A DNA stretch of 64,000 nucleotides from Halichondria panicea (Eukaryota > Porifera > Demospongiae > Suberitida > Halichondriidae): the NCBI RefSeq assembly GCF_963675165.1, contig NC_087392.1, positions 389,001 through 453,000 of the forward strand, in the 5' to 3' direction. The position numbers and the translations under genes are program-made. The notes beneath the pieces were generated by a model. It was not told the DNA's origin, did no database searches, and worked only from the letters and a program-made list of their open reading frames with translations. Position 1 is the stretch's first letter; every line of letters begins with the position of its first letter. This document shows positions 856 to 59,829 of this stretch, piece by piece.

Positions 856-1012
856 AAATGCACAGGAAAATCCAAGTAATTATAGATCGCCAGAGAACAA
901 TAAAATCCAGTGTATATAATTATATGACAACTCATGAGCTAGTGGGATCAGCACTGTACACACACTTACAACACTGAGTGAGTTAACTATAACAACATGG
1001 ATAGAGACTAAC

Positions 1013-1135
1013 TTGGTTGGAGCATCTTGTGCTTGCAATTGTGGCAGGGAGGCAATTCGTGCAGTCTAGCCTCCCTGGGCACACACACACATGCTGCAGC
1101 TCCCAGTTGAGCACCTGCAGCAGTTTATTGATGCC
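1013..1135 (-). pseudogene. Relic of Cys-rich exon E1 (CXC-RRM family)
   Basis: The reverse strand reads ASINCCRCSTGSCSMCVCAQGG and then a TAG. The start codon is gone (ACG for ATG). One base is lost after the GG pair, which puts the remaining Cys codons out of frame. The donor is still gttagt. A single decayed exon with no RRM exons in register beside it. Confidence 0.7.
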
Positions 1136-1307
1136 GTGTCGGAGAGCTAGAGAAGATGAGGCAGTGGAGATGAGATGGTTGGTAGTGGCTGCACGACTCA
1201 GTTTTGCATGATTGGTAGAGCTGGAGAGAGGATAAAGCTGGAGAGAGATGAATTTATATGAGTCGAATTATCGATGTATCTTGCATGTAGTGTTACGTAT
1301 TATATGT

Positions 1308-1536
1308 ATAGCGCGAAATTTTCGAGGGGCTTAATTTTTGCAGATTTTGTGGGTTAGAATTCTACACAAAATTAAAGTCCCCGAAAATTGTTCTTTAATT
1401 AGAATTACCTGCTATAACATGCAAAGATTTAAAGGCGTGACTTCCGGTAAGCAGTCATTCCGTGAACATTGTGCAACGAAATAGCTTTTGGAGGCCAATC
1501 CACGAAATATAAGTGCCTCGAAAATTTCACGCTATT
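1308..1536. mobile_element. Family A inverted-repeat element
   Basis: Begins TATAGCGCGAAATTTTCGAG and ends AAAATTTCACGCTATT. The interior matches the 267-451 copy but is inverted relative to it, including GACTTCCGGTAAGCAGTCAT. Both termini have substitutions, so the copy is old. Confidence 0.6.
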
Positions 1537-1659
1537 AATTATGGTAGTTGCATTCAATTTAAGCCAATGTGTGTTGCAAATGTTTTGTGGTTTCTGTCAA
1601 TAGTGCCAGCACATCACATAACACTCACAAAACAGGAACATACACATTCATTTACATTT

Positions 1660-2174
1660 TTCCTTTATTTATGGCTTTGTCCGCCGATCCTTTGTTCCAA
1701 GAATGTGGCGAACGCAAATCCTATAGAGACAGTAAGTAATGGCTACATTATTGTGAGTGGATGGTACACGTACTGAACTAATCCCTTGGTCCACTCCACC
1801 CAGCAGGGATGATGACACACTTTATACAAGGCAGAGCAGTATAGCACAAGTTATAATCGATCGAACCACTATACCCTTAATAATGACTTACACTAATTTC
1901 CCCAAACTGGCGGAGGGCCTGGCTTTTGTCCCCTTTAGTGCAACCTGCAGGCAGGCCACCTAGGTAAACCTTCTTCGATTTACTCTGTGAGGGAGTAGAG
2001 GAACCAGTGACATGAACTCAAGTTGAGTCAATGATATTCAGCTCATAATTATTAGCCTATAATTATACATTATATAACATGCATGCAGATGCAACAACAA
2101 TACACATGCACATGGTCACTCACTGAGCATTCCTTAGGAGGAGAGGAGGAGCGGACAATCACACTAGCTGGTAC
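1660..2174 (-). pseudogene. CXC-RRM cassette, RRM part (E3-E6), frameshifted
   Basis: Read on the minus strand. E3 at 2174-2124 is open and phase 0 (VPASVIVRSSSPPKECS). E4 at 1984-1892 is intact, 31 codons, beginning SKSKKVYLGGLPAG, with a good acceptor (ctcacag) and donor (gtaagt). E5 at 1819-1783 encodes CVIIPAGWSGPRG but its donor has become attagt. E6 from 1720 starts GFAFATF, then shifts frame before the SADKAINK-like helix. No E7 was found. The same subfamily as the intact gene at 45-48 kb. RRM halves this clear suggest recent decay. Alternative: a truncated product using E4 only. Confidence 0.65.
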
Positions 2175-2366
2175 CTGTGGAGGAGTGCAGGGGTCAATGA
2201 CATGAACTCAGATAAATTTACATCATGTGTAACGAATGGCAAGCTAAAGAATTTTTATGCTGCAACTGTGGATGTGAAACAAGAGTTAAAACGCAGCTGT
2301 TATTAATTTATCATTATAGGGGCAAATCCAACATAGCACACTCTATGATAATATGGGACACTCACG

Positions 2367-2440
2367 CTGCATTTTTTAAGCCTCAGGGCCCAGCGTGGTA
2401 GCTAGGGCTGGAGGTGGGGCTGGTGGGTTAGGGAGTGGAG
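2367..2440 (-). pseudogene. Decayed linker exon E2
   Basis: Minus strand: TAACCCACCAGCCCCACCTC, then an in-frame TAG, ending in LRLKKCS followed by a good gtgagtgt donor. A deletion in the GPMA region puts the two halves out of frame. 2450-2570 holds another partial copy of the same Pro-rich sequence. The exon lies where E2 would be expected between E1 at 3.2 kb and E3 at 2.15 kb. Confidence 0.5.
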
Positions 2441-2681
2441 AGCCTGTTCAGTATACGAGGCAGTGGATGGAGCTGGTGAGATTGGGGGTGGGGCAGAGCC
2501 TGCTGGTGGGTTACGTCCTGTGGGTGAGGGGGCCCTACTTGCCACCAGGGTGATCACCTTCTTGTGAGAGGTTCTATATAATATATTATTGTGCTCAGTA
2601 CATGCAATGCAATAATAATGTAGACAGCATTTTGAGTGATTTGGCTAAATCAATTCACAATTATGGCATACAGTCGTCTAA

Positions 2682-3267
2682 TCATTTTTTATTTATTTCA
2701 ACCTGTGGACAGAGTGCGTGCACGGTGCCAGCTAGCACATTCATGAAAACCTGTAGGTAAAAACTTACCCATGTTCTTTTTCTTTATAGCCTTTTCGGCC
2801 ACGTTTTCTTTAGCATGGCAAAGGCGAACCCTAGAGACAGCAAGTAATGGTTCAGCTACTACAATATTGTGAGTGGCTGGTACTAACCCTCTTCCTTCCT
2901 TCCTTTTCTCCCTCCTGGTACGACCAGACTCTGTACAAGAGAGAAGTATAGCATAAGTTAATTTGTCAAACCACCACCCTTAATAATGACTCACGCTGGT
3001 GCCGCCAAAACAACGGAGGGCTCCCTGATATCCCCTTCGGTGGTACGTGCAGGGAGGCCTCCCAAATAAATTTCTATGGATGCCGTCTGTGAGGGGGTGA
3101 TCCCATGAAAATTACCCGCTATACGGTATAACAATATGGATAGAGAGACTAACCTGGTTTGTACAGCTGCTTCCAGGGTGGCATTTGGTACAAGGTGTGC
3201 CCCTCTGGGCACACACACAACTTTGGCAGGAGCCTTTTGTGCACCTGCAACAGCATGATATGGACAT
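2682..3267 (-). pseudogene. CXC-RRM cassette with intact E1 but damaged RRM
   Basis: E1 at 3267-3154 is fully open: MSISCCCRCTKGSCQSCV, then CAQRG and a second Cys cluster ending CTNQ, followed by gttagtct. It lies downstream of a conserved TATA-box promoter block (3391-3450). Only about 70 bp separate it from E4 (3086-2995, TASIEIYLGGLPARTTEGD), and that intron contains the end of a family B element, so E2 and E3 appear deleted. E4 has lost one base in the ALR codons and shifts frame. E5 (near 2945-2900) and E6 (near 2850-2785, GFAFAMLKK then frameshift) are also damaged. E7 at 2702-2682 reads VEINKK and stop. A short E1-only product is possible. A full RRM is not. Confidence 0.65.
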
Positions 3268-3390
3268 TGTCACGGAATAGAGCCTAGGTAGGTCAAGGTA
3301 TAGAGGGATGATCGATGCACTGAAGAAGCCTTACAGAGGGATGATCAATGACTGAAGAAGCCTTGTTGCTGATTGTTCAGCACTGCAAAA

Positions 3391-3450
3391 GTCCGCTCTT
3401 TTATAACAATTATGAGGAGAGGAAGTGGGCGTGGGGCCACAGCTACGTAC
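3391..3450 (-). promoter_or_regulatory. Conserved family promoter block (TATA plus GC/ETS-like sites)
   Basis: On the minus strand, GTGGCCCCACGCCCACTTCC is followed by CTC, a short spacer and GTTATAAAAGAGC. The same block precedes the E1 copies at 10681, 29385 and 47847. It contains a CCACGCCC box (SP/KLF-like), ACTTCC (ETS-like) and a TATA box about 135 bp before the E1 start codon. Confidence 0.6.
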
Positions 3451-3526
3451 ATGGGAAAATGCAATTTTTATAGACCACCTAACCCTCTATTAGATAGTGG
3501 GACTGCATGCACACACACAACACCGA

Positions 3527-3722: not shown

Positions 3723-3743
3723 ACAATATGGATAGAGACTAAC

Positions 3744-5736: not shown

Positions 5737-7611
5737 CTACTCTTTTTTTTTATTTCCACTTGCAGACAAAGTGCATGCATGGTGCCAGCACATCACACAA
5801 AATTCGAAAAACAGGAACAAATTAAAAACTTACACTTTTTCCTTTGATCAATATTTTTTTTCTTTTCTACTGCCATTCTTGCCGATTCTTCTGAAAAAAA
5901 TCTAGCGAAGGCAAACCCTGGAGACAGAAAGTATAATGGTTTACTTATACAATATTGTGAGTGGATGGTACTAACCCCTCCCTTCCCTTCGCCCAGGGAT
6001 GTCCACCGACTGCAGAACAGAGAAGTAAAGCACATGTTAATTTGTCGAACCACCATGCACTTAAAAATGACTCACGCTGGTTCCTCCAAAGCAATGGAGG
6101 GCACTTCGTATTTCCCCCTTTGTTGTCTTGGGAGGGAGGCCTCCCATGTAAATTTCTTTAGATGCTGTCTGTGAGGGGTAGAGGAACCAGTTATATATGT
6201 ATATTTAGCTCATTATTAAATATTATCTTTCAAAATAGTAACATGCATATAATTATATATATACGTTTCCTCGAGCATGAATATCATTGTGAATGCGTAT
6301 ATATATATAGTGGTTAGCTCTCTACAGATTTCTGTGTTAGAGTAGTATAGTGTCGTTGTTGGCTTTGTTCATGCGAGACAGTGACTGAAGAGTTATACAC
6401 AACTCCAATGCATCTTGTCGACCTATTGATAGGCATACTTTTTCCATTTAAAAAACTCGAGCCCCCCCCCCCCCCCCCTATTGTGAAATTGCTTCATACA
6501 CCACTGATACAGATATAGATATAGAACACGCACACATGCATGCCGATACAACATAAAACAAATCGTTTGCGCGGCTTGAATTTATACAAATAGGCAATCT
6601 TGTACTATATATAATTCAGGAATTCGAGCATAACTACATATAATACATGTATGCGCGCACATGCATGGTCACTCACTGAACATTTCCTCTTAGGTGGAGG
6701 GGGAACTAGCTGACTAGCGGGAACCTGTGGAGGGGTCAATGACATGAACTCAAGCTTAATAGTGCAGAGCACATGCATGCATGCCACGTGATAACTACAA
6801 TCAGACATGCATAACGAATGGCGTGCTAATGGTTGTTTTTATTTTGCTAACTGCATGTGGATATGAAACAATAGTATGTTATAGCCAATAATATACTTCT
6901 ATCATATAGGGGCGATTGCCAAGCGATTCCAATATATCACACTCTATATGATACTACTGGACACTCACGCATCTCTTGAGCCTCAGGGCCATTGGGCCCA
7001 GCGTTAGAGGTGGGGCTGGTGGGTTTGGGAGTGGAGTGGCCTGTGAGGGAATTGGAGGAATCACATGAACTAAATCAAGTACATGCTTCCGTACTATTGT
7101 ACTACAAACACCTAGTGATAACTGGTTCAGTCTTGTATACGATGCGAGTGCATAAAAACAGCTGCCATAATTATATACTAAACAGGGCTTCACCTATATA
7201 GCCTTACATGCACAGCTCAGTATAATCATACAGAATGATATAGGTCTGCATACATGAAGTAGTGGTAGCTTAATCCTGTACACTTGTATGGTTTTATTAT
7301 TTATTCTGAGCAGTATTCTCAGGAGGCAAACATTTACGAAACGAAGCCAATGCACACGAGAAAAAATAATAGACCACTAGTAATTTTATAGACCACTATC
7401 GACCATGCACCAGAGAACAAGTGTATAATTTTGAGTTATGACAACCCTAGTGGGACCAGCACTGCTTGCACACACACAACACTGAGTATTAACATGGATA
7501 GAGACTAACCTGGTTGGAGCATCTTTGGCTGTTGCAAGTTGTACACGGTGTGCTCCCCTGGGCACACACACACCCGCTACATACTCCCGTTGTACATCTG
7601 CAGCATGACAT
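5737..7611 (-). CDS. CXC-RRM gene, inverted twin of 29385-31280
   Basis: Seven exons on the minus strand: E1 7611-7510 (MSCCRCTTGVCSGCV..., ends CSNQ), E2 7040-6969 (ATPLPNPPAPP...LRLKRC), E3 6724-6677 (VPASQLVPPPPKRKCS), E4 6168-6076 (TASKEIYMGGLPPKTTKGE...), E5 6009-5976 (SVDIPGRREGR), E6 5917-5834 (GFAFARF), E7 about 5758-5737. E1-E4 are phase 0. E5-E6 join in phase 1 and rebuild RNP1 as RGFAFARF. E6 is 84 nt where the twin has 83, because of one extra A in a poly-A run. The E7 acceptor is moved one base (gcaag for gcag). Together these keep the EIKKK end in frame but lose the usual stop, giving a short extension. It is either a working gene with a changed C-terminus or very recently broken. 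The promoter lacks the usual GC block, because a family B element lies at 7684-7766. Likely a nuclear RNA- or DNA-binding protein. Confidence 0.65.
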
Positions 7612-7911: not shown

Positions 7912-8077
7912 GGGCCTGGTGTGTTGCGGCAGAGCTAGACAATGTTGAGGAGGTGAGATTTGGGGGGAAATCGATGTGGCAGATGCTGAGAGCTGGGATG
8001 GAGATGGCAGACTTAATTATTTTTGCAAATGCACCAGAAAACAATAAAATCCAGTATATATAAAAATCCAAGTATAT

Positions 8078-8298
8078 ACCGTATAGCGCGAATTTTTCGA
8101 GGCACTTATATTTCGTGGATTGGCCTCTAAAATCCATTTCGTTGCACAATGTTCGCGGAAAATGACTGCTTACCGGAAGCCACGCCTTTAAATATTTGCA
8201 TGATAGCAGGTAATTCTAATTAAAGAACAATTTTGTAGACTTAATTTTCGTGTAGAATTCTAACCCACGAAATCTGCGAAAATTTCGCGCTATACGGT
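8078..8298. mobile_element. Family A inverted-repeat element, near-complete ends
   Basis: Begins ACCGTATAGCGCGAATTTTTC and ends AAATTTCGCGCTATACGGT. It is the best-preserved copy with 27069-27263 and 47223-47453. Inserted next to the conserved intron-1 block of a cassette. Non-coding. Confidence 0.7.
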
Positions 8299-8334
8299 AT
8301 ATGACAACTCATGAGCTAGTGGGCCCAGCACTGC

Positions 8335-10571: not shown

Positions 10572-10620
10572 GTGTACGTAGCCCCACGCCCACTTCCGCT
10601 CATAATCGCTATAAAACCGA
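10572..10620 (+). promoter_or_regulatory. Conserved family promoter block
   Basis: GCCCCACGCCCACTTCCGCT, then CATAATCGCTATAAAACC. TATA box about 70 bp upstream of the E1 start at 10681. Same block as at 29245-29300. Confidence 0.55.
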
Positions 10621-14994: not shown

Positions 14995-15123
14995 ATGGTT
15001 TCCAATTCCAAGGGAACAACAAAGTTTTGCAGATGCACAACTGGCACATGCCTCAACTGTGTATGTGCCCGGGGAGGCAGGCCATGCAACAATTGCCTTC
15101 CTGGAGGCAATTGCTCCAACCAG
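14995..15123 (+). CDS. Intact E1, subfamily 2
   Basis: 43 codons: MVSNSKGTTKFCRCTTGTCL, then NCVCARGGRPCNNC and LPGGNCSNQ, donor gttagtct. Twelve-residue spacing between Cys clusters as in other intact copies. Subfamily 2 differs by an SK-rich N-terminus and ARGG for AQGG. Downstream on the same strand are EL at 15310 and E7 at 15754, but no intact RRM half lies between, so only a short protein could result. Confidence 0.6.
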
Positions 15124-16499: not shown

Positions 16500-16841
16500 A
16501 TCACTTAACATACTTCTACATTATGTTGCACGACATCTGCTCCGTCACAACCGCCTCGATACCTCCACAGCCACATCTTCAACAACACCAGTCACAACAA
16601 CCAACACAGCCACATCGTCCTCAACCAAGTCTACTATAATATACTCTACCATTGCACTGACTCTACCAGCTCTACCACCGTCTCAACCAGCTCTCAACTG
16701 CTCTTCAACTCATCCACCGGCCACCTACCTCACATGAACATGTCGTGCTGCAGATGCACAACGGGAGTTTGTAGCGGGTGTGTGTGTGCCCAGGGGGGCA
16801 CACCCTGTACAAATTGCAACAGCCAAAGATGCTCCAACCAG
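16500..16841 (+). CDS. Intact E1 with leader
   Basis: E1 is 16740-16841, 34 codons: MSCCRCTTGVCSGCVCAQGG TPCTNCNSQRCSNQ, donor gttagtct. It is identical in plan to the E1 of the complete genes. The upstream leader shares ACTGCTCTTCAACTCATCCA with the E1 leaders at 7.6 and 10.6 kb. Before that (about 16530-16640) lies a Thr/Ser-rich stretch homologous to the linker fused to E1 at 58784-58584. No intact E2/E3 follows before the next E1 at 17196. Confidence 0.6.
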
Positions 16842-17195: not shown

Positions 17196-17330
17196 ATGGC
17201 CTCCAATTCCAAGGGATCAACAAAGTGCTGCAGATGCACAAGTGGCACCTGCCTAAGCTGTGTCTGTGCCCGGGGAGGAGGGCCCTGCAAAAACTTCCTC
17301 CCTGGAGCCCGTGGCAATTGTTCCAATAAG
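17196..17330 (+). CDS. E1, subfamily 2, with one Cys changed to Phe
   Basis: 45 codons: MASNSKGSTKCCRCTSGTCL, SCVCARGGGPCKNFLPG, ARGNCSNK, donor gttagtct. The conserved NCLPG Cys is Phe, which should weaken metal binding if the Cys residues are ligands. EL at 17585-17629 and E7 at 17961-17987 (VSIQKIKK, stop) follow. An E4 relic lies at 17366-17446. Confidence 0.55.
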
Positions 17331-21300: not shown

Positions 21301-21879
21301 ATGCAAAGAGCTAATGGGACCACAAGCTTACTACTCTAGCAAACCCACAGACCATAAGACACTACCTACTTGTCTGTTTGGAAGATAACAAGTGTAAGGG
21401 GTGCTGTTTATGCTCATACAGAGCCTGGATTTACACTGTTGTAGTTCGTATATGCATGCATGCATGCAGGCTATATTTAGTTTGTTATATAATGATATAT
21501 AGTTAGACTTAACTGCAATTAATTATACGTCCTCGACTATAACACAGTATGCACACGATACACGCAGACAGAGAAAAAGAGAACTAAAATGTTATAGCTT
21601 GTATAATGTTATAGCTTGTATACATGCACGTATAAGGTCCCTCACTTGAGTGCTGTCAAAGTTGTCTGGCACAGCACAATGAGTGTACAGTCATCATAGA
21701 TCCCTCTGTGCAGCGAGTCTGTCCTTTGGGTTGAATCATGAACTCTGTAAGAATAACAACAATGTTTACATTGCAGAATGCAGAATACAATGTAATAATA
21801 AAGGGCATAAATATAATTATCAGCACATGCACAATATTTTATAGGACAAAAAGTTGGATCTATGTGCCAAATATATACA

Positions 21880-22070
21880 TACAGTACTTACAGTGGGTGA
21901 GCTTTGGAGGCACCGCAGCGCCAGAGAGATACGCCGGCTTCATGGTGAGGCCTGTAAGCCATGAGGTAGAAATCAGATGTACGCATGCGCATTTAGACCT
22001 CATGTGCCACAGAGCTCGAATTAGTTGACGTCATGTGCATGGATAGCCTCGAACCCAGCCCCAGGCCACA
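21880..22070 (-). promoter_or_regulatory. Promoter-like block with NRF1-like and CRE sites and a short ORF start
   Basis: The minus strand holds TGACGTCA-type (TTGACGTCAT) and GCGCATGCGT motifs about 90-130 bp upstream of ATG AAG CCG, which reads MKPAYLSGAAVPPKLTH and meets a gtaagtac donor. The inverted partner is at 52740-52915 (+). A third copy of the ORF start is at 57123 (+, MKPVYLSGAAVPLELSS). The next conserved block (21635-21745, minus) carries CACTCAAGTGAGG. A split regulatory or gene remnant is possible. No full protein is recognised. Confidence 0.35.
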
Positions 22071-22143
22071 CTTAGTGCTCTAGGCCAGCCCCACCCCTTA
22101 TTTTCGCAGTAGTACGTACGTACCTGTACCTGGTCGATCAAAG

Positions 22144-22183
22144 CATAGATAGTAAAGGGAATACATTCCCTTTACTATCTATG
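22144..22183. mobile_element. 40-bp palindromic insertion with 7-bp direct repeats
   Basis: The insert starts CATAGATAG and ends CTATCTATG with an 18-bp perfect stem and 2-base loop. ATCAAAG flanks it on both sides (22137-22143 and 22184-22190). The inverted partner copy near 52637-52645 has the site only once and no insert. Confidence 0.75.
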
Positions 22184-24140
22184 ATCAAAGACTCCAGCTT
22201 ACTTTGGAATATTGGTGAGACCCAATGCTGGATTTCTGTGTGTGTGTTTTCCTCTTCTGTACTGTAGCCCATGACACAGCAACATAGGAGAGACATTTGT
22301 ACCGTTATCATTTAGTTTTATGTTCCCCGACCCCTCCCATTCCCTCACAAACCACTGGTCCCTATAGCTGTTCCCCCAGCCCCTCCTTCCTCACCTACAC
22401 AGCCTAGCAGAGAGCACGGGACGTACGTCACATGTGAGTGACCATGTTGTTATGTAAATGCTGAGAATGCTAGTCTAGGGTGAGACTTAAGTTGGGCAGA
22501 GCCCGACCGTCCCTGAGGTCGGGTTTCAAGCCTATGTAAGGATTTGTCTTTGCTGCAACTATATTTGCAGCCCAATCAGATTGCAGCATTTCTACTGTGG
22601 TCGGTGTCACGTCCGGTTGCGCAACCTCAAGCAAGGTAAAATTGGTTAACACCCGTACCCACTTCAGAATAATAATATTCATAGAATAAAATGATTATTC
22701 ATAGCTGCTTACAGCGTGTTACATAATTCAGCAAGACAAATCCTGACATAGGCTTGAAACCCGACCTCCCGTCAGAGACGGTCGGGCTCCGCCCAACTAG
22801 GTGAGACTGGCTATATAGTAGCAATTTGCAGCATTGGAGTCCCTAGAATTGGCTTAAGTGACAGGTAGATTTGTCTGCGATTTCACTGTTTAGCTCATTT
22901 TGCTAAATTCAATCGTAGCGTTTCTAAGTACTCGCAGTGGTTTTAATTATATTCATTGCATTTTCTAATTTTCTGCGAGTATAGATTTGCAATTTTACTT
23001 TCATTCGCAGAAATAGCAGAAAATAGCAGTAAACATGGTCGAATATCAACAATGAAAAAGACTGTGGTATACATTTTAGCACATCATCTGAAAGGCCTAA
23101 GCTTAATGTTATTGACACAACGGATAGAGGTCCCCTTCAAGTACTAACGTTATGGCCGTTCAATTTAATACTACTATCCACTCTTTCTAGGGGTTGGTAG
23201 ATTATGTTCGAGATAAACATTGCTATTCTTTTATGCTCAAGTTAACAGCTCAAGTTATCAAGAGTATAATAGAGAAGAGAGCATCGAACGTAGGAATACT
23301 GTACATCAGATGTATGCAGAGAGTAACGTGACTTCCTGTATCTGTCATGGGCTTGCACACTGAGCAATCAAGTGTGTGGGTGATGTAATCTACTTTCTGC
23401 CATCACTCACGCCAGTGTGCACATTCCATACTTGTATGACCTGTATCCAAAACCTGCCTATTATTCTCATAAAGGTGCCTACTATATATGCCAGCATAAT
23501 TCTCACTAAGAATGTGCTATTATGCTCAAAATAGTGCCAGCATAATCTACCAACCCTAAATCTTCCCCTTTTCTGTAATTTTAGTCGTCAATAATTGTAT
23601 AGCACACTACGTCTCAGACTCTGTTTCATCTGTAGGAGATTCTCAACTGTTTCCATCCACTTCCCCTCCTTCTCCACCCGAGACATCCATTGTAACTACG
23701 TGGACTGTATGCGATGGTTTGGGTTCCTGAGACCCTCTCCAAGTCGTGTGAGGATTGTGGTCATGTGAGGATTGTGTCGTACTGTGGAAGCCTCCAGAGA
23801 AAGAGACAGACATTCAGGTGGGTGAGTGAACAATTGTGTTCCTGATCAGTGAGATTGAGGTTTTTTTCGTTACAAGCATCACATCTTGTAGCCTCGGTCC
23901 TAGGCCGATTAAAAAAAAAACGAAGTTGAAAAATACGGCCTGGTATTGATTGTATCTGGGCATATTGATTGTATGTTACATTGCCAGCTATGGACACTCA
24001 GTCATACAACTAGTATCTGAATGCAAATTTTAGGGGGGATATCCCCTCCCCCCCCGTATGACACCATGTGTACCCTCCCATTGTACTAATATTTGATTTT
24101 TGATTTTTTTAAGTAAAGAACCCAGCTGTTTCATGCAATA

Positions 24141-25460: not shown

Positions 25461-25964
25461 GTGAGTGTCCTTCGTTATTCGCTCAATCATCATTAGTGGG
25501 TGGGGATGGAGGCCTTGTCCCCACCCCTACTTCTGATACTTCCTCTAGCTCTAGATTGTCATCTGCAAGCGTTAATAGTCTTATTCGTTTAAGAGCCTGG
25601 AATTTTGATTGCTTTTTGAACGCCCACTAACTACTTCCTGTATAGCTTCCGCTGTAAAATTGTGCTGAGCTGGCACGCCCTTTTACATTGAAGTCATTGT
25701 AAAATCAATGCGTTTTTGCAGCCTCTGCATTCTGCAATGCATGCGCTATTATTCTAAATAAAGGAAGTTCTTGCTTTCACTCACTGCCCTTTGTGATGGA
25801 CTACATGTAGGACCAACACTGCCGGCCCTTGTCGACAGGTGTGTTGTTCTTGCAAATCTCTCTGCTTCTTGTTTTTTGGTTCCTAACCACGCCCAGATAC
25901 AATCAACACCAGGCCTAGCTAGAAACAACTCGGCCTGGAATCGAGGCTAGCTTATCGGAAGCCA

Positions 25965-26090
25965 CGCCTTTAAATCTTTGCACGTTACAGCAGATAATTC
26001 TAACAATTTTTGTGGGCTTAATTTTCGTGTAGGATTGCACCCACGAAATCCGCGAAAATTAAGCCCCTCGAACATTTCACGCTATACGGT
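25965..26090. mobile_element. Family A element, right part
   Basis: From GAAGCCACGCCTTTAAATC to CATTTCACGCTATACGGT. The left half is absent or replaced by the AATCGAGGCTAG repeat. Confidence 0.5.
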
Positions 26091-26144
26091 ATATGCATGT
26101 ATGCTCTGCACTTATGTCATTGACCCCTGAACCCCCCTCCACAG

Positions 26145-26561: not shown

Positions 26562-27019
26562 ATGGCATCTAAATGCAGCTGCAAGTGCAGCACTGGCTCT
26601 TGCCACACCTGCGTGTGTGCCCAGGGAGGCAGGCACTGCACAAATTGCCTCCCTGCTACAAGAAGTAGCTGTACTAACCAGGTTAGTCTCTATCCATGTT
26701 ATTATATATAATATAGCTAAGTCACTCAGTGTTGTAAGTGTGTGTGCAGTGCTTGGCCGACTAGCTCATGAGTTAGTTGTCATAGAGTCTCTGGTGGTCT
26801 ATAATTTTCCCATGTGCATTTTCAAAAAATTAATTTGTTGGATGCGAGGAGTTTTCATGGTGCGTTCAATATAGACACAATTTTTCTAGCCATGCATATA
26901 AGCATACTGCTTGATTTAGTTAATTATTCATATCATGCACTGATTCCTCACAGCCTAATGCATCAACTCTACCAGCTACCACAGACCCCACGCTGAGGCT
27001 GGGGGTTAAAAGATGTGAG
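26562..27019 (+). CDS. CXC-RRM gene start: intact E1 and E2
   Basis: E1 26562-26681 is 40 codons: MASKCSCKCSTGSCHTCVCA, QGGRHCTNC, LPATRSSCTNQ, donor gttagtct. E2 26954-27019 reads PNASTLPATTDPTLRLGVKR CE with good splice sites (cctcacag, gtgagt), phase 0. Downstream E2-like exons (27319-27404, frameshifted; 27425-27514, donor ttgagt) and an E3-like stretch (27545-27602) are damaged. The next open E4 in order is only the partial one at 28.53 kb. A two-exon or alternatively spliced product is possible. Confidence 0.5.
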
Positions 27020-27068: not shown

Positions 27069-27263
27069 ACCGTATAGCGCGACATTTTGTGGGTTAGAAA
27101 TCTACACGAAAATTGTTCTTTAATTAGAATTACCTGCTATCATGCAAAGATTTAAAGGCATGGCTTCCGGTAAGCAGTCATTCCGCGAACATTGTGCAAC
27201 GAAATGGCTTTTAGAGGCCAATGCACGAAATATAAGTGCCTCGGAAATTTCGCGCTATACGGT
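27069..27263. mobile_element. Family A inverted-repeat element
   Basis: ACCGTATAGCGCGACATTTTG on the left, AAATTTCGCGCTATACGGT on the right. Inserted into the intron after E2 at 27019. Confidence 0.7.
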
Positions 27264-29244: not shown

Positions 29245-29300
29245 TGTACGTAGCTGTGGCCCCACGCCCACTTCCGCTCATAATCGCTATAAAAGAGCGG
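29245..29300 (+). promoter_or_regulatory. Family promoter block of the complete plus-strand gene
   Basis: GTGGCCCCACGCCCACTTCC, GCTCATAATCG, CTATAAAAGAGCGG. The TATA box at 29288-29295 is about 95 bp before the start codon at 29385. Conserved at four places in the window, always just upstream of E1. Confidence 0.65.
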
Positions 29301-29384: not shown

Positions 29385-31280
29385 ATGTCTGCCCTATGCT
29401 GCCGATGCAAGACCGGGCTCTGTAGCGGGTGTGTGTGTGCCCAGGGGGGCACACCGTGTACAAATTGCAATAGCCAAAGATGCGAAAACCAGGTTAGTCT
29501 CTATCCATGTTATTATAGTTAATACTCAGTGTTGTGTGTGTGCATGCAGTGCTGGTCCCACTAGGGTTGTCATAACTCAAAATTATACACTTGTTCTCTG
29601 GTGCATGGTCTATATAGTGGTCTATAAAATTACTAGTGGTCTATTATTTTTTCTCGTGTGCATTGGCTTCGTTTCGTAAATGTTTGCCTCCTGAGAATAC
29701 TGCTCAGAATAAATAATAAAACTATATACAAGTGTGCAGGATTAAGCTACCACTATACTACTTCAATGTATGCAGACCTATATCATTCAGTATGATTATA
29801 TTGAGCTGTGTAAGGCTATATAGGTGAAGCCCTGTTTAGTATATAATTATGGCAGCTGTTTTTATGCACTCGCATCGTATACAAGACTGAACCAGTTATC
29901 ACTAGGTGTTTGTAGTACAATAGTACGGAAGCATGTACTTGATTTAGTTCATGTGATTCCTCCAATTCCCTCACAGGCCACTCCTAACCCACCAGCCCCA
30001 CCTCTAATGCTGGGCCCAATGGCCCTGACTCTTAATATATGCGTGAGTGTCCAGTAGTATCATATAGAGTGATATATTGGAATCGCTTGGCAATCGCCCC
30101 TATAATGAAGTATATTATTGGCTATAACATACTATTGTTCATATCCACATGCAGTTAGCAACATAAAAACAACCATTAGCACGCCATTCGTTATGTATGT
30201 CTGATTGTAGTTATTACGTGGCATGCATGCATGTGCTCTGCACTATTACTTGAGTTCATGTCATTGACCCCTGCACTCCCTCCGGTCCACAGGTTCCCGC
30301 TAGTCTGTCCACAATACCCCCTCCACCTAAGAGGAAACGTTCAGTGAGTGACCATGTGCACGCATACATGTATTATATGCAGTTATGCTCGAATTCCCGA
30401 ATTATATATAGTACAAGATTGGCTATTTGTATAAATTCAAGCCGCGCAAACGATTTGTTTTATGTTGTATCGGCATGCATGTGTGCGTGTTCTATATCTA
30501 TATCTGTATCAGTGGTGTATGAAGCAATTTCACAATAGGAGGGGGGGGCTCGAGTTTTTTAAATGGAAAAAGTACGCCTATCAATAGGTCGACAAGATGC
30601 ATTGGAGTTGTGTATAACTTTTGAGTCACTGTCTCACATGAACAAAGCCAACAACAACACTATACTACTCTAACACAGAAATCTATAGAGAGCTAACCAC
30701 TATATATATATACGCATTCACAATGATATTCATGCTCGAGGAATCGTATATATATAATTATATGCATGTTACTATTTTGGAGGATAATATTTAATAATGA
30801 GTTGAATATACATCATGTATAACTGGTTCCTCCACCCCCTCACAGACGGCATCCAGCTCAGAAATATACTTGGGAGGCCTCCCTCCCCGAACCACGAAGG
30901 GGGAAATAAGAATTGCCCTCCAATCCTTTGGAAAAACCAGCGTGAGTCATTTTTAAGTGCATGGTGGTTTGACAAATTAACATGTGCTTTACTTCTCTGT
31001 TGTGCAGTCGGTGGACATCCCTGGGCGAAGGGAAGGGAGGGGTTAGTACCATCCACTCACAATATTGTATAAGTAAACCATTATACTTTCTGTCTCCAGG
31101 GTTTGCCTTCGCTAGGTTTTATAAAAAAAGCTCTGCAAAAATGGCGATAGAAAAAAAATGTATATTAATTAAAGGACAAAGTGTAAGTTTTTAATTTGTT
31201 CCTGTTTTTCGAATTTTGTGTGATGTGCTGGCACCATGCATGCACTTTGTCTGCAGGTGGAAATAAAAAAAAAAGAGTAG
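29385..31280 (+). CDS. Complete CXC-RRM gene, 7 exons, 153 aa
   Basis: Exons: E1 29385-29492 (MSALCCRCKTGLCSGCVCAQ, then GGTPCTNC and CENQ), E2 29977-30042 (ATPNPPAPPLMLGPMALTLN IC), E3 30293-30343 (VPASLSTIPPPPKRKRS), E4 30846-30941 (TASSSEIYLGGLPPRTTKGE...), E5 31008-31041 (SVDIPGRREGR), E6 31100-31182, E7 31257-31280 (VEIKKKE, stop). All junctions have consensus gt/ag. E1-E4 are phase 0 and E5/E6 joins in phase 1, rebuilding RNP1 RGFAFARF, which strongly supports the model. CDS 462 nt. Domains: Cys-rich module (res 1-36), Pro-rich linker, PPPPKRKR basic signal (about 68-75), RRM (about 81-153) with RNP2 IYLGGL. Role (inference): nuclear RNA/DNA-binding protein, Cys module perhaps zinc-binding. 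The Cys spacing is reminiscent of CXC/tesmin modules. A metallothionein-like module is the alternative. Inverted twin at 7611-5737. Confidence 0.8.
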
Positions 31281-35591: not shown

Positions 35592-36912
35592 TCATGCCAA
35601 AAGAGAAAGGGGCAAGGAAAACAAAACGAACTGGGATGGTATCAAGTGGAATGAATTAGGACAAACTAAAGACTGGAGGTATACATTCCAACTGTGTTAT
35701 CAACTGATACTGATCACATGTACTCAGATTATGGACCAATAAATTTAGCTCGTGGAATGTGAATGGAATCAGAGCATGGATAAAGGTATCGTTTCCTCCA
35801 TGAATTACAATTATTAACCACCGCATTTTATACACTGTGTACAGAATGGTGGTCTGGAGTACATTGCAAGGGAAGACCCAGACATATTCTGTGTACAAGA
35901 AACCAAGTGTATTGAGAAAGAGCTTCCTATGGTAGGACAGCCACTGTACACACACACTCACCCCCCCCCACACACACACACACTCACCCCCCCCACACAC
36001 ACACACTCACCCCCCCCACACACACACACTCACCCCCCACACACACACACACTCTCACACAATCCCCCTCCCCCCACACACTCACCCCCCTCCCCAAACA
36101 CTCTCACACAATCCCCCCTCACCACACACACACTCACCCACACCCACACACACACACTCTCACACAACCCCCCTCCCCACACACACACATTCTCACACAA
36201 CCCCCCTCCCCACACACACACTCTCACACAACCCCCCCCACACACATACACACAGAACCAGCTCGGTATTCCTGGCTACCACGTCTACTGGCACTCTGCT
36301 GAGAAGAAAGGCTACAGCGGTGTGTAAAAGAAGATAGGTGCCTTTTGAACCCACTAACGTTAACGTTTTCTATATGCATGTTTTATTTTACATTTTGTCT
36401 CTGAACAAACAATCTGAGTTTGCGTTCCCTTTGTGTACAAGCATGTGTGTATTCTACGTGCAGATTTGAAGAACCCCAAGACAAACGCAAAGACAGCTGG
36501 TTTCACGCCTGAGGAGAGACAGGACTTCACAGAGCTACTGGAGGAGGGTTTTGTGGACACCTTCCGTCACCTGTATCCCGACCTCGCTGGAGCATACACT
36601 TACTGGTCATACAGGTTCAACGCCAGAGCCAAGAACACTGGCTGGTGAGTGCTCCCGCATTACTCTAGAAATAGAGTGTAATTTCAGTGTGTGTGAGCAA
36701 ACTGTACAGCTACAGCGGAACCATTATTTTTTATATAACAAAACATTTGCCATTATAATTATGTAGGAGGTGGGCTTTTTATATCGTAGATGGTTAGGAG
36801 TGGCCGTTAAGGTACATTACTGTTTAATATAAAATCATATTTATTTTTCTTCAGGAGACTGGATTATTTCGTGGTGTCTGAGCGGCTCCTCCCTCATGTG
36901 ACTGATTCGTAA
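35592..36912 (+). pseudogene. Broken APEX1 copy (AP endonuclease)
   Basis: Matches exon by exon the intact gene at 62487-60587, in opposite orientation. Present: part of exon 3 (to 35678), exon 4 35728-35785 ([11 protein letters not shown]), exon 5 35845-35931 (QETKC), exon 6 from 36256, exon 9 36464-36644, exon 10 36855-36912. Exons 7 and 8 are deleted: exon 6 runs from GYSGV into TAA and the last bases of exon 8. Exon 10 has lost 8 bases and stops before the catalytic SDHCP motif, whose His codon is also changed (GATTATTGC). The intron after exon 5 has grown into a 300-bp CA/C-rich array (35940-36250). Cannot encode an active nuclease. Confidence 0.85.
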
Positions 36913-45087: not shown

Positions 45088-47847
45088 TTACTTTTTTATT
45101 TTCCGAATTGAAACCTGTGGACAAAGTGCATGCATGGTGCCAGCACATCACATAACATTCACAAAACAGGAACATGCACATTAACTTACATTTTTTCCTT
45201 TAATTAAAACAAAATTTCTTTTTATTGCCTCTTCATAAGATTTTAAATTTTCAAATGTAGCGAAGGCGAAACCTGGAGACAGCAAGTATATAATGGCTAC
45301 ATTATTTTGAGTGGATGGTATACTGTACTAACCCCTTGGTCCACTCCCCCCAGCAGGGATGACGACACACTATATACAACAGAGAAGTATAGCACAAGTT
45401 AATCGATAGAACCACTATACCCTTAATAATGACTCACGCTAATGGGACCAAACTGGCGGAGGGCCTGGTTGATGTCCTCTTTCGTTGAACCTGCAGGCAG
45501 GCCACCTACGTGCACCTTCTTAGATTTACTCTGTGAGGGAGTAGAGGAACCAGTGACATGAACTCTATATAGTTGAGTCAATGATATATATTCAGCTCAT
45601 AATTATTAGCCTATAATTATAGTATACACACGATTCCCCAAATTAATGGAGCCTCGGCTGTCAATTCCTTCAGCCCTATATATATATATATATATTGACC
45701 TGACCACAAAACGCTTGCAACACACATTGCATGGCTGTATAACTAACATAATACGGAACACTACATGCAATTCTATATACATGGCCCTCACTGGGACTGT
45801 GGTGGCTGGGACCGTGACTGGGACTGTGTTAGCTGGGACTGTGGTGGCTGTGACTGGGACTGGGACTAAGACTGGGACTGTCTGTAAGGGAGCAAATGTC
45901 AATGACAACAGTCATATAAAATTATGTGTATTTACGAGAAGTGTATAGACTTGGTGTGCATGAATTAATAATACTATATAGCACTCACTATGGTAACCAC
46001 AACCACTTCAAGTATACAAGGCGCTAACAATAACAATGCTGAAAGGACATGCATGACTCAGGGATAATAAAATCACTTATTCATGTAAATTTCTGGATTT
46101 CACAGTTTGCAGTTTGTGACGTAGGTTGGACAAGAAGGCCTACTACGGTTTTTAAGTGGAGTTGCAGACTCTTCCTTGCTATACAGCCTATATAAAGCTA
46201 TAGCTCTTTCAGCTAGTGCGAAACTTTATTTTATTTTTGTGTATAAATATAGTAGATCAGTTTATAGAGGTAATAAAGATTACCGAATGTATACACTGTA
46301 AATAAGGATGTGTGGTTTTGACGCAGAGTGCGTGGCTATTGTGGCAAACGTGCGTTTTTTCTTGCATTTTTTCCTGATAGTTGCCACAATAGTCACGCAC
46401 TTGCGTCAAAACCACACACCATTTTTTACAGTGTAGCCACACCTAATTCCGCATCCTGAGCGTGATATACATGCATACACTATAACTACTGCGCGCTAAG
46501 ACGCTCGGCAATTACATATACATGGTAAACATCTATATAACGCAGAAACAAAAACATAAAACAAATGTTATAATTATTGATAATGTTTGTGGGACTAGAA
46601 CATCTTTGAATCCATACAATCTGGTATATAATTATTATAACAATTCGGGAATTCGAGCGTGCATAACTGTAATACAGAACACTCATGCATGCATATATAA
46701 TTATATATATACACATGCACATGCGCATGGTCACTCACAGCACACCTCCTCTTAGGAGGAGGGACAATCACTGATGGTACCTGTGGAGGGGGTGCAGGGG
46801 TCAATGACATGTGGACTCAAGTTAGTGCAGAGCATATACATGCATGTGTGTACCTAATTGGCCAATAAAACTGCATGAAGTAACAATCATGTGTAACGAA
46901 TGGCATGCATGCTAATAAATTATTTTATGCTGCTAACTGTGAATGTGAAACAATAGTTATAAATGCTGGTATTATAGCCAATAATTATACATAACACTAA
47001 TTAATTATTATAGGGGCAATTGCCAAGCTATTCCACACATGCATATATATAGCTAGCACATGCATGCACTCTAAGATAATATATTGACGTGACACTCACC
47101 GCACATCTTTTTACTCGGAGTGCCATTGTGGCAGGTACGACGCTTGTGGTGGTGAGGGCAGTGGCTGGAGTAGGCTGAGAGGAATAAGTGCATGACATGA
47201 ACTAATCAAGTATAATAATTATACCGTATAGCGCGAAATTTTCGAGGCACTTATATTTCGTGGATTGGCCTCTAAAAGCCATTTCGTTGCACAATGTTCG
47301 CGGAATCAGACTGCTAACCGGAAGCCACGCCTTAAATCTTTGCACGTTATAACAGGTAATTTAACAATTTTCGTGGACTTATTTTTGTGTAGAATTCTAA
47401 CCCACGAAATCCGTGAAAATTAAGCCCCTCGAAAATTTCGCGCTATATACGGTATACCATGACGCTTCTGTATTATATATTATAGTATATGCATGGCTAG
47501 TAATCCAATTTTATTAGCCAAACCACAATACATGCTACTTTTTAATTCTGTGCCTCACTCTGTTACTTATATGGAATTTTAATATGAGCAGTATTCTCAG
47601 GAGGCAAAAATTTACGAAACTGTTGTGCTTACTGCAAATGCACATGGGAAAATGCAAGTAATCAGTTATAGCTAGACCACCAGAGACTCTACACTGATCG
47701 AGTGAATTAGCTATATATATAATAACATGGATAGAGACTAACCTGGTTGGTGCACCTGCTTCCAGGGTGGCAGTTAGTACAAGGTGTGCCCCTCTGGGCA
47801 CACACACAACTCTGGCACGAGCCTTTTGTGCATCTGCAACAAGGCAT
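45088..47847 (-). CDS. Complete CXC-RRM gene, 8 exons, 183 aa
   Basis: Minus-strand exons: E1 47847-47743 (MPCCRCTKGSCQSCVCAQRG, TPCTNCHPGSRCTNQ), E2 47174-47100 (PTPATALTTTSVVPATMALR VKRCA), E3 46780-46739 (VPSVIVPPPKRRCA), EL 45881-45792 (Val/Pro/Thr repeat of TVPV type), E4 45530-45438 (SKSKKVHVGGLPAGSTKEDI...), E5 45369-45333 (CVVIPAGGSGPR), E6 45272-45190 (GFAFATFENLKSYEEAIKR...), E7 45114-45088 (VSIRKIKK, stop). CDS 552 nt with every exon boundary consensus. All phases are 0 except E5/E6 (phase 1), which rebuilds RGFAFATF. It differs from the 29-31 kb gene by a 30-residue linker between the basic exon and the RRM. The promoter block is at 47977-48040. The intron between E3 and EL holds a 140-bp MITE (46294-46433). 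The E1-E2 intron holds a family A element. Confidence 0.8.
46294..46433. mobile_element. 140-bp MITE with long terminal inverted repeats, TA-flanked
   Basis: CACTGTAAATAAGGATGTGT and ACACACCATTTTTTACAGTG at the ends. The arms share GTGTGGTTTTGACGCA and TGCGTG, CTATTGTGGCAA. TA on both sides fits a Tc1/mariner-type target duplication. It lies in an intron of the 45-48 kb gene. Confidence 0.65.
47223..47453. mobile_element. Family A inverted-repeat element
   Basis: ACCGTATAGCGCGAAATTTTC to GAAAATTTCGCGCTATATAC GGT. Sits in intron 1 of the complete minus-strand gene. Confidence 0.7.
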
Positions 47848-47976: not shown

Positions 47977-48040
47977 CCGCTCTTTTATAACAATTATGAG
48001 GAGCGGAAGTGGGTGTGGGGCCACAGCTACGTACACCCCC
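47977..48040 (-). promoter_or_regulatory. Family promoter block of the complete minus-strand gene
   Basis: Minus strand GTGGCCCCACACCCACTTCC, GCTCCTCATAATTG, TTATAAAAGAGCGG. Upstream, 48050-48360 continues the same 5' region seen at 29040-29240 and 10400-10560 (ATACGGTACACAGCAC, GTTGATGGCTTCGTTGCCAG), so the whole upstream region has been duplicated with the gene. Confidence 0.65.
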
Positions 48041-51814: not shown

Positions 51815-53870
51815 ACCATTAGCTATAATTTTCTGCTATTTCTGCGAATGAAAGTAAAATTGCAAATCTATACTCGCAGAAAATTAGAAAATGCAATGAA
51901 TATAATTAAAACCACTGCGAGCACTTAGAAACGCTACGATTGAATTTAGCAAAATGAGCTGAACAGTGAAATCGCAGACAAATCTACATGTCACTTAAGC
52001 CAATTCTAGGGACTCCAATGCTGCAAATTGCTACTATAGCCAGTCTCACCTAGTTGGGCGGAGCCTTCAAGCCTATGTCAGGATTTGTCTTGCTGAATTA
52101 TGTAACACGCTGATAAGCAGCTATGAATAATCATTTTATTCTATGAATATTATTATTCTGAAGTGGGCCAATTTTACCCTGCTTGAGGTTACGCAACCGG
52201 ACGTGACACCGACCACAGTAGAAATGCTGCAATCTGATTGGGCTGCAAAGACAAATCCTGACATAGGCTTGAAACCCGACCTCAGGGACGGTCGGGCTCT
52301 CCCCAACTTAAGTCTCACCCGGACCCTAGACTAGCATTCTCAGCATTTACATAACAACATGGTCACTCACATGTGACGTACGTCCGTGCTCTCTGCTAGG
52401 CTGTGTAGGTGAGGAAGGAGGGGCTGGGGGAGTGGCACTGGGCCCAGTCTGGGGGCACAGATATAGGGGCCAGTGGTCTGTGAGGGAATGGGAGGGGTCG
52501 GGGAACATAAAACTAAATGATAACAGTACAAATGTCTCTCCTATGTTGCTGTGTCATGGGCTACAGTGCAGAAGAGGAAAACACACACACAGAAATTCAG
52601 CATTGGGTCTCACCAATATTCCAAAGTAAGCTGGAGTCTTTGATCGACCAGGTACAGTACAGGTATGTACGTACGTACGTATGTCCAAAATAAGGGGTGG
52701 GGCTGGCCTAGAGCACTAAAGTGTGGCCCGGGGCTGGGTTGAGGCTATCCATGCACATGACGTCAACTCATTCGAGCTCTGTGGCACATGAGGTCTAAAT
52801 GCGCATGCGTACATCTGATTTCTACCTCATGGCTTACAGGCCTCACCATGAAGCCGGCATATCTCTCTGGCGCTGCGGTGCCTCCAAAGCTCACCCACTG
52901 TAAGTACTGTATGTATATATTTGGCACATAGATCCAACTTTTTGTCCTATAAAATATTGTGCATATGCTGATAATTATATTTATGCCCTTTATTTGTATT
53001 CTGCATTCTGCAATGTAAACATTGTTGTTATTCTTACAGAGTTCATGATTCAACCCAAAGGACAGACTCGCTGCACAGAGGGATCTATGATGACTGTACA
53101 CTCATTGTGCCGTGCCAGACAACTTTGACAGCACTCAAGTGAGGGACCTTATACGTACATGTATACAAGCTTGCTATAACATTATACAAGCTATAACATT
53201 TAAGTTCTCTTTTTCTCTGTCTGCGTGTATCATGTGCATACTGTGTTATAGTCGAGGACGTATAATTAATTGTAGTTAAGTCTAACTATATAACGAACTA
53301 ACTATATAAATATAGCCTGCATGCATGCATGCATATACGAACTACAACAATGTAAATCCAGGCTCTGTATGAGCATGAACAGCATCCCTTATACACTTGT
53401 TATCTTCCAAACAGACGAGTAGGTAGTGTCTTATGGTCTGTGGGTTTGCTAGAGTAGTAAGCTTTTAGCTCTAATTTGCATGCATGCTTGGGTGAACACA
53501 AACTAATACAGACTAGTAGGTAGTGTCTGTGGGTTTGCTAGAGTAGTAAGCTTGTGGGGCCATTAGCTCTAATTTGCATGCATGCTTGGGTGAACACAAA
53601 TTATTAATTTCGTGCTTCCATGTAGTATACAAGTACTCCACTTTCACTTTCACTTTATTCTCTTCTCACATGTACAGTATTCAAGTTCTCTGATGCCATT
53701 CATGGAGGACCAAGCAAGAGAATCAACGGCATGCAGCACTGAGGGAGGGATCTTCTCACTTGTGCAGTGCACTTGAGGTACAATTAATCTATATACTGCC
53801 CTCTGTGTTTCATTATATAGAAGGCAGTATTTAGTTTTGACATTATATGTGGCCATTTTCTAAAAATGTA
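51815..53870. repeat. 2-kb arm of the inverted duplication (partner 21060-23140)
   Basis: Reverse complement of 21.06-23.14 kb. It keeps the empty site for the 40-bp palindrome (52637-52645). A plus-strand NRF1/CRE block lies at 52740-52840, followed by the MKPAYLSGAAV frame with a gtaagtac donor at 52910. A 115-bp stretch at 53440-53600 is tandemly duplicated (TTTGCATGCATGCTTGGGTG twice). Confidence 0.8.
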
Positions 53871-57739: not shown

Positions 57740-58047
57740 CTGTGAGGAATTAATCAGTTCATGACATGAATAATTAACTAAATCAAGCATACTTCCATAT
57801 CATTTTGTATACATGGCTAGAAAAATTGCGTATCTATAATTATATTGAACGCACCAATAATTTGTACTAACACAGTATACATATATACTATAACAATAAA
57901 TAACAATAATTATAGCAAGTGAATAACGTATGTAATACATGACACTCACCGAACTACTGTGTCTGTGCCCAGGGAGGCAGGCCATGCATAATTTTAATCT
58001 GAGACACCGGCCACTGCTTCTCTATATCCTTTCATCTCAGCTCCAAG

Positions 58048-58373
58048 ATGGCCTCCAGCTCCAAGGACATAATGAAGTGCTGCATATGCACAAGTGGCAC
58101 CTGCCTCAGCTGTGTCAGTGCCCGGGGAGGAGGGCCCTGCAACAATTGCCTTCCTGGAGCCGCTTTTGCCACATTTTGTAAAGAAAACTCCAGCTCCAAG
58201 GACATAACAAAGTGCTGCAGATGCTATGCACAAGTGGCACATGCCTCAGCTGGTACTGTATAGCTGATCTCGACTCTTCTCCTCGATCCACTCGGTGTCC
58301 GTCTAGATCTTCTATGGCCTGCTGTAGATGCCGAACAACTGGCACATGCCTAGAAAAATTGCGTCTATATTGA
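58048..58373 (+). CDS. Chimeric ORF: Cys module, RNP1, Cys module (71 aa), then E1 fragment
   Basis: 58048-58263 is a single open frame: MASSSKDIMKCCICTSGTCL, SCVSARGGGPCNNCLPG, then AAFATFCKENS (an E6 RNP1 start), then SSKDITKCCRC and a short tail to TAG. Two E1 exons are joined through a piece of E6, in frame. One Cys of the first module is Ser (CVSA). It is followed at 58314-58373 by another E1 start (MACCRCRTTGTCLEKLRLY). A tail of a further E1 lies at 57957-58000. Confidence 0.45.
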
Positions 58374-58583
58374 ACGCACCATGAAGCATCTTTTAACCCT
58401 AAACCTCATGTTTGCCTTTAATGCAGTAACGCAGTACTAAAGTTACTTCTTTTTTAAATACTTTAATTTCCATGATTCAGCTCATAACAATAGTAACATA
58501 TACACACGATTCCCCAAAGTAATGGAGCCTCGGCAATCCCTTCAACCTTATTGACCCACACATTGGCTAACAAGCGTCATGGA

Positions 58584-58784
58584 TTATAGCTGCTGTGACT
58601 GGTGCTGTGAGGACGATGTGGCTGTGTTGGTTGCTGTGACTGGTGTTGTTGAAGATGTGGCTATGGAGGTGGAGGTAGATATCGAGGCGGTTGTAAGGGA
58701 GCGGATGTCGTACAACACGCATTTGGTAGGCGCACATCCGCTGCAGCTCCCAGTCGTGCACCTGCAGCAGTTTACTGATGCCAT
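58584..58784 (-). CDS. E1 N-half fused to Thr/Ser linker, 66 aa ORF
   Basis: MASVNCCRCTTGSCSGCAPT KC, then VLYDIRSLTTASISTSTSIA and a Thr/Ser/Gln-rich end to a stop. The second Cys cluster is replaced by linker sequence related to EL (the CGCTCCCTTACA acceptor region of an EL is read through). Related half-copies: 14849 (E1 part) and 16530-16640 (linker part). Possibly expressed, no RRM attached. Confidence 0.4.
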   Translation of the reverse strand: MASVNCCRCTTGSCSGCAPTKCVLYDIRSLTTASISTSTSIATSSTTPVTATNTATSSSQHQSQQL

Positions 58785-58959
58785 GCGGAGAGTGCGCTAG
58801 AGATGAGATATGGTCGGAGAGTAGCAGTGGCGGAGAACTTTGCCAGGCAACGTACTTGAACTGTGCACTGCAAAGTCGCCCTTTTTAACTGAAATCAAAA
58901 AAAAGTAATGACTGTGTTGTATTATTATTCTTGCATGGTGCCAGCTGACATCATATGAA

Positions 58960-59165
58960 TTTCGAAAACATAAAAATTTCCTTTAATTAAAATTTATAGC
59001 CTTCTCGGCTGCTTTTTCTTTACAAAAGGTCGCAAACGCAAACCTAAATTTATTAATTTCCACCTGTGGACAAGTGTGCATGGTCAGCACATCGCATAAC
59101 ATTCAAGACAGGAACAACAATCTTACATGTAGGCCACCTAGGTGCACCTTCTTCGATTTACTCTG
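58960..59165 (-). pseudogene. E6 and E4 fragments
   Basis: 59165-59129: SKSKKVHLGGLH, an E4 start with good acceptor that breaks off into gtaag. About 59040-58975: FAFATFCKEKAAEKAINFN, an E6 with stop. 59170-59370 is a copy of 45540-45720, so this block is a partial duplicate of the region around E4 of the complete minus-strand gene. An E7-type acceptor (gtccacag) lies at about 59070. Confidence 0.5.
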
Positions 59166-59652
59166 TGAGGGAGTAGAGGAACCAGTGACATGAACTCTAT
59201 ATAGTTGAGTCAATGATATATATTCAGCTCATAATGATTAGCCTATAATTATAGTATACACACGATTCCCAAAATTAATGGAGCCTCGGCTGTCAATTCC
59301 TTCAGCCCTATATATATATATTGACCTGACCACAAAACACTTGCAACACACATTGCATGGCTAACAAACATTTGAATGGAACTAACATAATACGGAACAC
59401 TACATGCAAACATTTTATGCATGTGTAAAACTTGTTAGTGGGTGTGGTTTCTTGGCATCTTCTGAGGGCTCTCAGTGTGCATGCACCCGCGAAAATGTCC
59501 ATAATTATATATAATTATACACAATCAATTCATTCATTATACACGCACGCATATATAATATAATTATAAACTTTTTTTAATTTCTACCTGTGGACAAGTG
59601 TATCCATGGTCAGCATATCACCTAACATTCAAGACAGGAACAACAAACTTAC

Positions 59653-59738
59653 AGTTTTTCCACAAATTTGGACTGTTTTTTGAGCAGTGGCCTTTTGAGC
59701 CGATTTGCTGCATGTAAAGTTTGCGAATCCAAACCCGC
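59653..59738 (-). CDS. Open E6 exon with RNP1
   Basis: 29 codons after the phase-1 join: GGFGFANFTCSKSAQKATAQ KTVQICGKT, acceptor tgtctccag, donor gtaagttt. RNP1 is GGFGFANF. An E7-type acceptor (gtccacag) follows at about 59590. No E4 or E5 lies upstream within 1 kb. Its tail is found inverted at 12176-12214. Confidence 0.45.
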
Positions 59739-59829
59739 CTGGAGACAGTATAAGTAAAGAATGTGTGCTTTCCACAATTTTTGTCAGCCCGGTAGTTTTC
59801 TGGGTCTTTAAAGATTGTAGGGACATTCA

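Follow-up and report, generated by a model that had tools for sequence, protein, structure and literature searches.

Genes A and B and their relatives

The 64,000-nucleotide stretch of the Halichondria panicea genome analysed here (hereafter the window; bases 389001-453000 of contig NC_087392.1, C16 in an assembly of 131 Mb and 39 contigs) contains two intact members, genes A and B, of what is predicted to be a multigene family of small proteins combining a cysteine module with an RNA recognition motif (RRM), and in several pairs of copies the coding exons differ far more than the introns between them. Gene A is on the plus strand (29385-31280) with seven exons encoding 153 amino acids, and gene B is on the minus strand (47847-45088) with eight exons encoding 183; both frames are open and all introns run from GT to AG (6/6 in A and 7/7 in B). 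The exon order common to the two genes is the cysteine module E1, a proline-rich linker, a basic PPPKRK exon, and the RRM. This is the order proposed in the first-pass annotation, and it is real in both genes. No paper describing the architecture was found in a search that excluded subscription papers and preprints, and the family is apparently undescribed.

In gene A the cysteine module (exon 1, 29385..29492, plus strand as for the exons that follow) precedes the proline-rich linker (exon 2, 29977..30042), a basic PPPPKRKR stretch that is likely a nuclear signal (exon 3, 30293..30343), the first half of the RRM (exon 4, 30846..30941), its middle (exon 5, 31008..31041), RNP1 with the second half (exon 6, 31100..31182), and a final exon that includes the stop codon (exon 7, 31257..31280). 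Gene B, on the minus strand throughout, has its module at 47743..47847, the linker at 47100..47174 and a PPPKRR stretch in exon 3 (46739..46780), followed by an extra exon rich in proline, valine and threonine (45792..45881) and then by the first RRM half (exon 5, 45438..45530), exon 6 (45333..45369), RNP1 and the second RRM half (exon 7, 45190..45272), and exon 8 with the stop codon (45088..45114). The module occupies exactly one phase-0 exon in each gene, and within the family it contains eight or nine cysteines.

Both proteins match RRM_1 (PF00076) above its curated cut-off of 20.7 bits (A, 35.7 bits; B, 40.7 bits), and the nearest solved structure in the PDB to the RRM of B is hnRNP A1 RRM2 (E 7.6e-13); the RRM of the family is an ordinary hnRNP A1-like domain, with its RNP motifs kept as in hnRNP A/B-type proteins (hnRNP A1, DAZAP1, Musashi). 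Unlike those proteins, members of the family have one RRM only, an N-terminal cysteine module and no glycine-rich tail, and they occur in a large array of copies. No signal peptide was seen in the family proteins, and the RRM together with the basic exon suggests nuclear nucleic-acid binding. A promoter block composed of GTGGCCCCACRCCCACTTCC and TATAAAAGAGCGG lies upstream of A, B and a decayed relative of B (B'); before gene A it spans 29256..29300 on the plus strand, with the pair GTGGCCCCACGCCCACTTCC and TATAAAAGAGCGG, and before gene B it spans 47977..48024 on the minus strand. Within the window the TATA part occurs only at these three places, and the first part at these three and, with one mismatch, at 10578 (chance 0.10 and 0.01 for the two parts).

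Of the E1 copies in the window, most are either disrupted or incomplete. Gene C (5737..7611, minus strand) is a broken copy of the A type that lacks the promoter block of A and B, its last acceptor reading CTGCAA (AA instead of AG) and its exon 6 having an indel that puts it out of frame with A; the annotation's claim of perfect gt/ag junctions and phase in all three genes thus holds for A and B and fails for C. The B-like remains, B' (1600..3440, minus strand), comprise a promoter block, an E1 (3154-3258) and two RRM halves (1892-1984 and about 1664-1721). Further E1 copies on the plus strand include T1 (15022..15123), its tandem relative T2 (17217..17327), the open copy D, which has a 5′ flank in common with C (16740..16841), and another open copy at 26562..26681. 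Hidden Markov models find 28 matches of at least 14 bits to E1, 16 to the first RRM half and 13 to the second, and five dinucleotide shuffles of the window give none for any model (top shuffled score, 12.5 bits). Some of the E1 matches are two pieces of one frameshifted copy, and about two dozen E1 places are counted by eye; the earlier tally was of some 25 more E1 copies and at least 15 RRM half-exons.

Members of the family also occur outside the window, where a larger second array spreads over C1:1.24-2.25 Mb (genome searches with B and A give 83 and 88 matches with E no greater than 1, some of them to sequences that do not belong to the family). This array is built of repeating units that contain fragments of the A, B and T types. 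Among the 16 and then 3 more stretches of it that were read are seven near-complete A-type copies (g28, g30, g31, g32, g34, L051 and L053), L052 being too partial to score for lesions. All seven share an insertion in exon 5, a lost intron 5 acceptor and a deletion in exon 6, and six of the seven have lost the intron 3 acceptor; that all A-type C1 copies are broken applies to the stretches read, and other parts of C1 may contain intact ones. The family probably turns over by birth and death, growing and dying through duplication.

Divergence of exons and introns between copies

The comparison of A with C illustrates the pattern. The exons differ at 62 of 449 positions and the introns at 35 of 1397 (Fisher p 1.8e-17), equivalent to identities of 86.2 percent and 97.5 percent, and the alignment changes sharply at the exon borders. 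Similar gaps are seen against the C1 copy g30, both for A (54/383 in exons vs 36/1155 in introns) and for C (51/383 vs 39/1149), with E2 and intron 2 excluded because of long indels and non-homologous sequence. The comparison of flanks covers pairs in which one or both flanks fall below 16 percent, and in these the first RRM half differs at 16/93 positions between B and B' (5/148 in the adjacent introns) and at 24/93 between B and h30 (1/68), and E1 differs at 17/109 between T2 and t33 (0/68).

The excess extends to silent sites. At unchanged codons there are 0.25-0.33 silent differences per site in five pairs (A-C 0.249, A-g28 0.314, C-g28 0.260, A-g32 0.327, B-B' 0.303), so that selection on amino acids alone is insufficient, and plain positive selection is rejected as the cause since divergence at silent sites is about ten times that of the introns. 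By the NG86 method the A-C synonymous (dS) and non-synonymous (dN) divergences are 0.33 and 0.16; A-type copies have dN/dS values of 0.35-0.48 with one another, and the A-B pair has 0.32 over 92 codons. Exons E1, E2, E4 and E6 carry old differences, silent ones included, and the introns, the TATA promoter and the 3′ end are near-identical between copies; old silent differences beside young introns indicate that exons and introns have different histories. A and C have the same exon 5 (0/34) and the same introns on either side of it, which is the appearance expected of a converted tract. The relationship among A, C and the C1 consensus is star-like in exons and introns alike, with 25, 22 and 19 changes and 7 columns all different among 382 exon columns, and 15, 15 and 19 changes among 1159 intron columns (E2 and intron 2 again excluded).

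Two controls bear on this reversal. First, dead C1 copies show no gap between exons and introns (8/473 vs 21/1236, 11/473 vs 24/1236 and 7/473 vs 17/1441 in three undisturbed pairs of the ten compared), so that exons are not simply more mutable and a higher mutation rate in exons as such is unsupported. Secondly, a duplicated RRM gene on C4 (C4:6313501-6400300, L046-L049), which we take to be SREK1-like, has exons below introns in all three pairs (2/534 vs 97/2149, 11/533 vs 34/811 and 6/213 vs 18/362), and the reversal is therefore not a general property of the genome. In a genome search, A-type introns 1 and 3 recur at full length only in genes of this family, which leaves dispersed-repeat or introner-type introns unsupported; a part of intron 3 of about 70 bases recurs elsewhere in the genome.

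The cysteine module and a reverse-transcriptase element

No Pfam family matches the E1 of A or B. The TCR/CXC domain (PF03638) gives no hmmscan match up to E 10, and none of its 37 matches in this genome lies inside either array (the first stage of that scan scores the best candidates only); metallothionein (PF00131) matches neither A nor B, and three of ten element modules (see below) at a best E of 0.056, and membership of either family is not supported. The first-pass annotation placed the module in an apparently undescribed family; the module itself is not private to these genes, as it also stands at the start of retroelement reading frames elsewhere in the genome. E1-type modules open long reading frames on C13, C15, C5 and C1. 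One of these, at L050:735-3995 (C1:17033235-17036495), is a single uninterrupted frame of 1086 amino acids, and L037, L038 and L039 are likewise reverse-transcriptase open reading frames that begin with an E1-type cysteine module. RVT_1 is present in all three of the element loci scanned, below the cut-off in L037 and above it in L039 and L050 (E 4.7e-13 in L050). The C-terminal piece has no Pfam match, and an R2 protein in the PDB is reached only at E 0.034. A 42-residue element query gives 44 matching places with E no greater than 1; of these, 22 lie beyond the two arrays with E of 1e-3 or lower, and a part of them was scanned for reverse transcriptase.

Profile-profile alignment (hhalign) of hand-picked sets of 10 element modules and 11 array modules gives a probability of 98.4, E 9.3e-15 and 53 percent identity, and an unselected search with an element module reaches B at E 0.0098 and array copies at 4.3e-5. 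The cysteine module thus shares ancestry with the module at the N terminus of a scattered reverse-transcriptase element, either direction of transfer being compatible with the data. That the element took the module from a host gene, or that both took it from a third source, is a somewhat doubtful but real possibility, given that the homology is symmetric and that the module is a discrete exon in A and B; the 22 places outside the arrays suit the element as the spreader, although they are not decisive. One study reports R2-homologous and Utopia-like elements in Porifera (PMC13188248). Should the module-bearing element belong to the R2/Utopia-like non-LTR retroelements of sponges, the homology of E1 to the N-terminal module of the reverse-transcriptase frames of this genome would be a point of likeness to these, but A and B are without reverse transcriptase. 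A psalmotoxin match of the element module (E 0.71) is at chance level. No relatives were confirmed in IMG/VR and GTDB contigs, which hold little or no animal DNA and are uninformative on other animals. A further E1-like module (PRRCCRCNGNAKCLRCACVREGSPCTSCLP) is found within a 146-amino-acid frame at L064 (C5:505750-506000).

Two other kinds of repeated sequence are present. A short dispersed repeat with copies 83-89 percent alike, ending near ACCGTATAGCGCGAAATTTTCG, is located within intron 1 of gene B (47220-47421), with further copies in the window at 265-438, 1307-1535, 8075-8284, 25937-26093 and 27084-27314 and another at L038:2208-2412; similar sequence occurs in intron 3 of the C1 copies g32 and g34. 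Large inverted duplications, mostly more than 90 percent identical, pair 21613-23024 with 51828-53171 and 35609-36906 with 60692-62132, and as far as seen are outside the gene family.

A proposed history of homogenised introns and retained exons

The reading that we favour, at a probability of about one half, is a birth-and-death family of nuclear RNA-binding proteins in which non-coding parts are homogenised and old coding exons are retained, in the manner of the major histocompatibility complex (MHC). Gene conversion or recombination would keep homogenising the introns and other non-coding parts, and selection would keep distinct coding exons apart. Homogenisation of introns is a known feature of MHC genes. 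The likeness is that the exons of a gene may differ in history from its introns, and MHC-Ap is described as such a mosaic (PMC12674619). Unlike MHC genes, the family here is without an immunoglobulin fold and has dN/dS below 1, the comparison being within one assembly. Conotoxins are similar in having conserved introns beside diverged coding exons, with introns conserved within a superfamily and Ds and Dn rising in the mature-peptide exon (PMC3862624). These are secreted toxins, however, whereas the present family has an RRM and no signal peptide was seen in it.

Several observations weigh against this reading. Two signatures of a diversifying, MHC-like family would be coding exons more diverged than introns, which is seen with exceptions, and dN/dS above 1, which is not, the values across nine pairs being 0.15-0.48. 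With E2 and the partly non-homologous intron 2 included, the ratio for A-g30 is 2.1 (76/440 vs 114/1355). A and the C1 copies are also strongly diverged in the 5′ untranslated stretch ahead of E1, so that the difference is not limited to coding sequence, and in the distant k35 and k36 pairs the 5′ introns are as diverged as the exons (C-k35, 24/58 vs 29/93). Seven of the ten dead pairs show an exon excess until the E1 of g34 (replaced, 25-26 of 98) and E3 and E7 of g32 (disturbed by indels) are removed, after which these seven have 1.5-2.4 percent in exons and 1.3-2.8 percent in introns. Finally, no donor sequence or end of a conversion tract was identified: a genome search with the E1 and R4 exons of A gives no near-identical donor (best other match 88 percent in each), and a shorter k-mer check on the loci read gives no donor exons.

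The likeliest alternative account of the exon-intron pattern, although we consider it unlikely, is that introns are slowed by strong functional constraint, as from regulatory or splicing elements, and that exons change at the normal rate. Even between distant copies there is fair conservation of the 66-base intron that follows the first RRM half (B-k35, 7/66 vs 34/93 in the exon), and dead copies, where constraint would be gone, have equal exon and intron rates. However, introns 1 and 3 of A and B align badly (158/384 and 102/240 differences, with many gaps), and the window has no match to an Rfam family at gathering scores. The ratio of intron to silent-site divergence is also not constant with age, the short introns differing at 44/198 between A and B at a dS of 1.27 (near saturation and resting on 58.5 sites, and so moderate evidence) and at 3/198 between A and C at a dS of 0.33, and homogenised introns therefore fit better than steady constraint.

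It is less probable still that all the copies are mere remnants of genes with no present function, A and B being open by chance or only recently dead. The abundance of broken and partial copies in the window and the three lesions common to all A-type C1 copies read are as this would predict, but A and B retain 13 of 13 introns, full frames and a shared promoter block, and their dN/dS is well below 1. We give the least credence to a mutational or templated process acting on exons where the copy is live (by hypermutation, or by conversion with spliced cDNA or paralogues since lost as the template) that places new exon variants in old introns. Such a process is consistent with the sharp change at exon borders, the raised silent sites, the clustering of several base changes in one codon (11 of the 22 codons that differ in A-C), the raised transversions (transitions to transversions, 30/32 in exons vs 22/8 in introns) and the presence of a reverse transcriptase source in the genome. 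It would also affect exon 5, however, which with the last exon is spared, the donor searches with E1 and R4 were negative, and CpG is touched by 12 of the 62 A-C exon differences, which is no strong bias.

The description of the locus as a factory for variants is too strong in view of the many broken copies and the missing near-identical donor, but the greater divergence of coding sequence than of introns suggests that protein variety is being kept. Under homogenisation with retained exons, the protein would bind RNA in the nucleus through its RRM, and the variable cysteine module and RRM helices may engage partners that change, as the diversity suggests; in view of the shared module, transcripts or proteins of the module-bearing retroelements may be among these partners. 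As the work of the protein, this combination of nuclear RNA binding with changing, possibly retroelement, partners is tentative and of low probability. More speculative, and in our view rather improbable, is that the host family arose from the N-terminal cysteine module of the retroelement joined to an RRM, and would now be a set of fast-turning, MHC-like restriction factors that bind RNA in the nucleus and act against that retroelement, their coding exons being kept diverse within continually homogenised introns.

The reversal of exon and intron divergence at silent sites offers a clean test case for how gene conversion and selection would divide a single gene into portions that differ in age. 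If the interpretation is true, an early-branching animal, a sponge, would possess a diversifying intracellular repertoire of RNA-binding proteins that shares a module with an active-looking retroelement, and would provide a non-vertebrate, non-KRAB case of host-element conflict.

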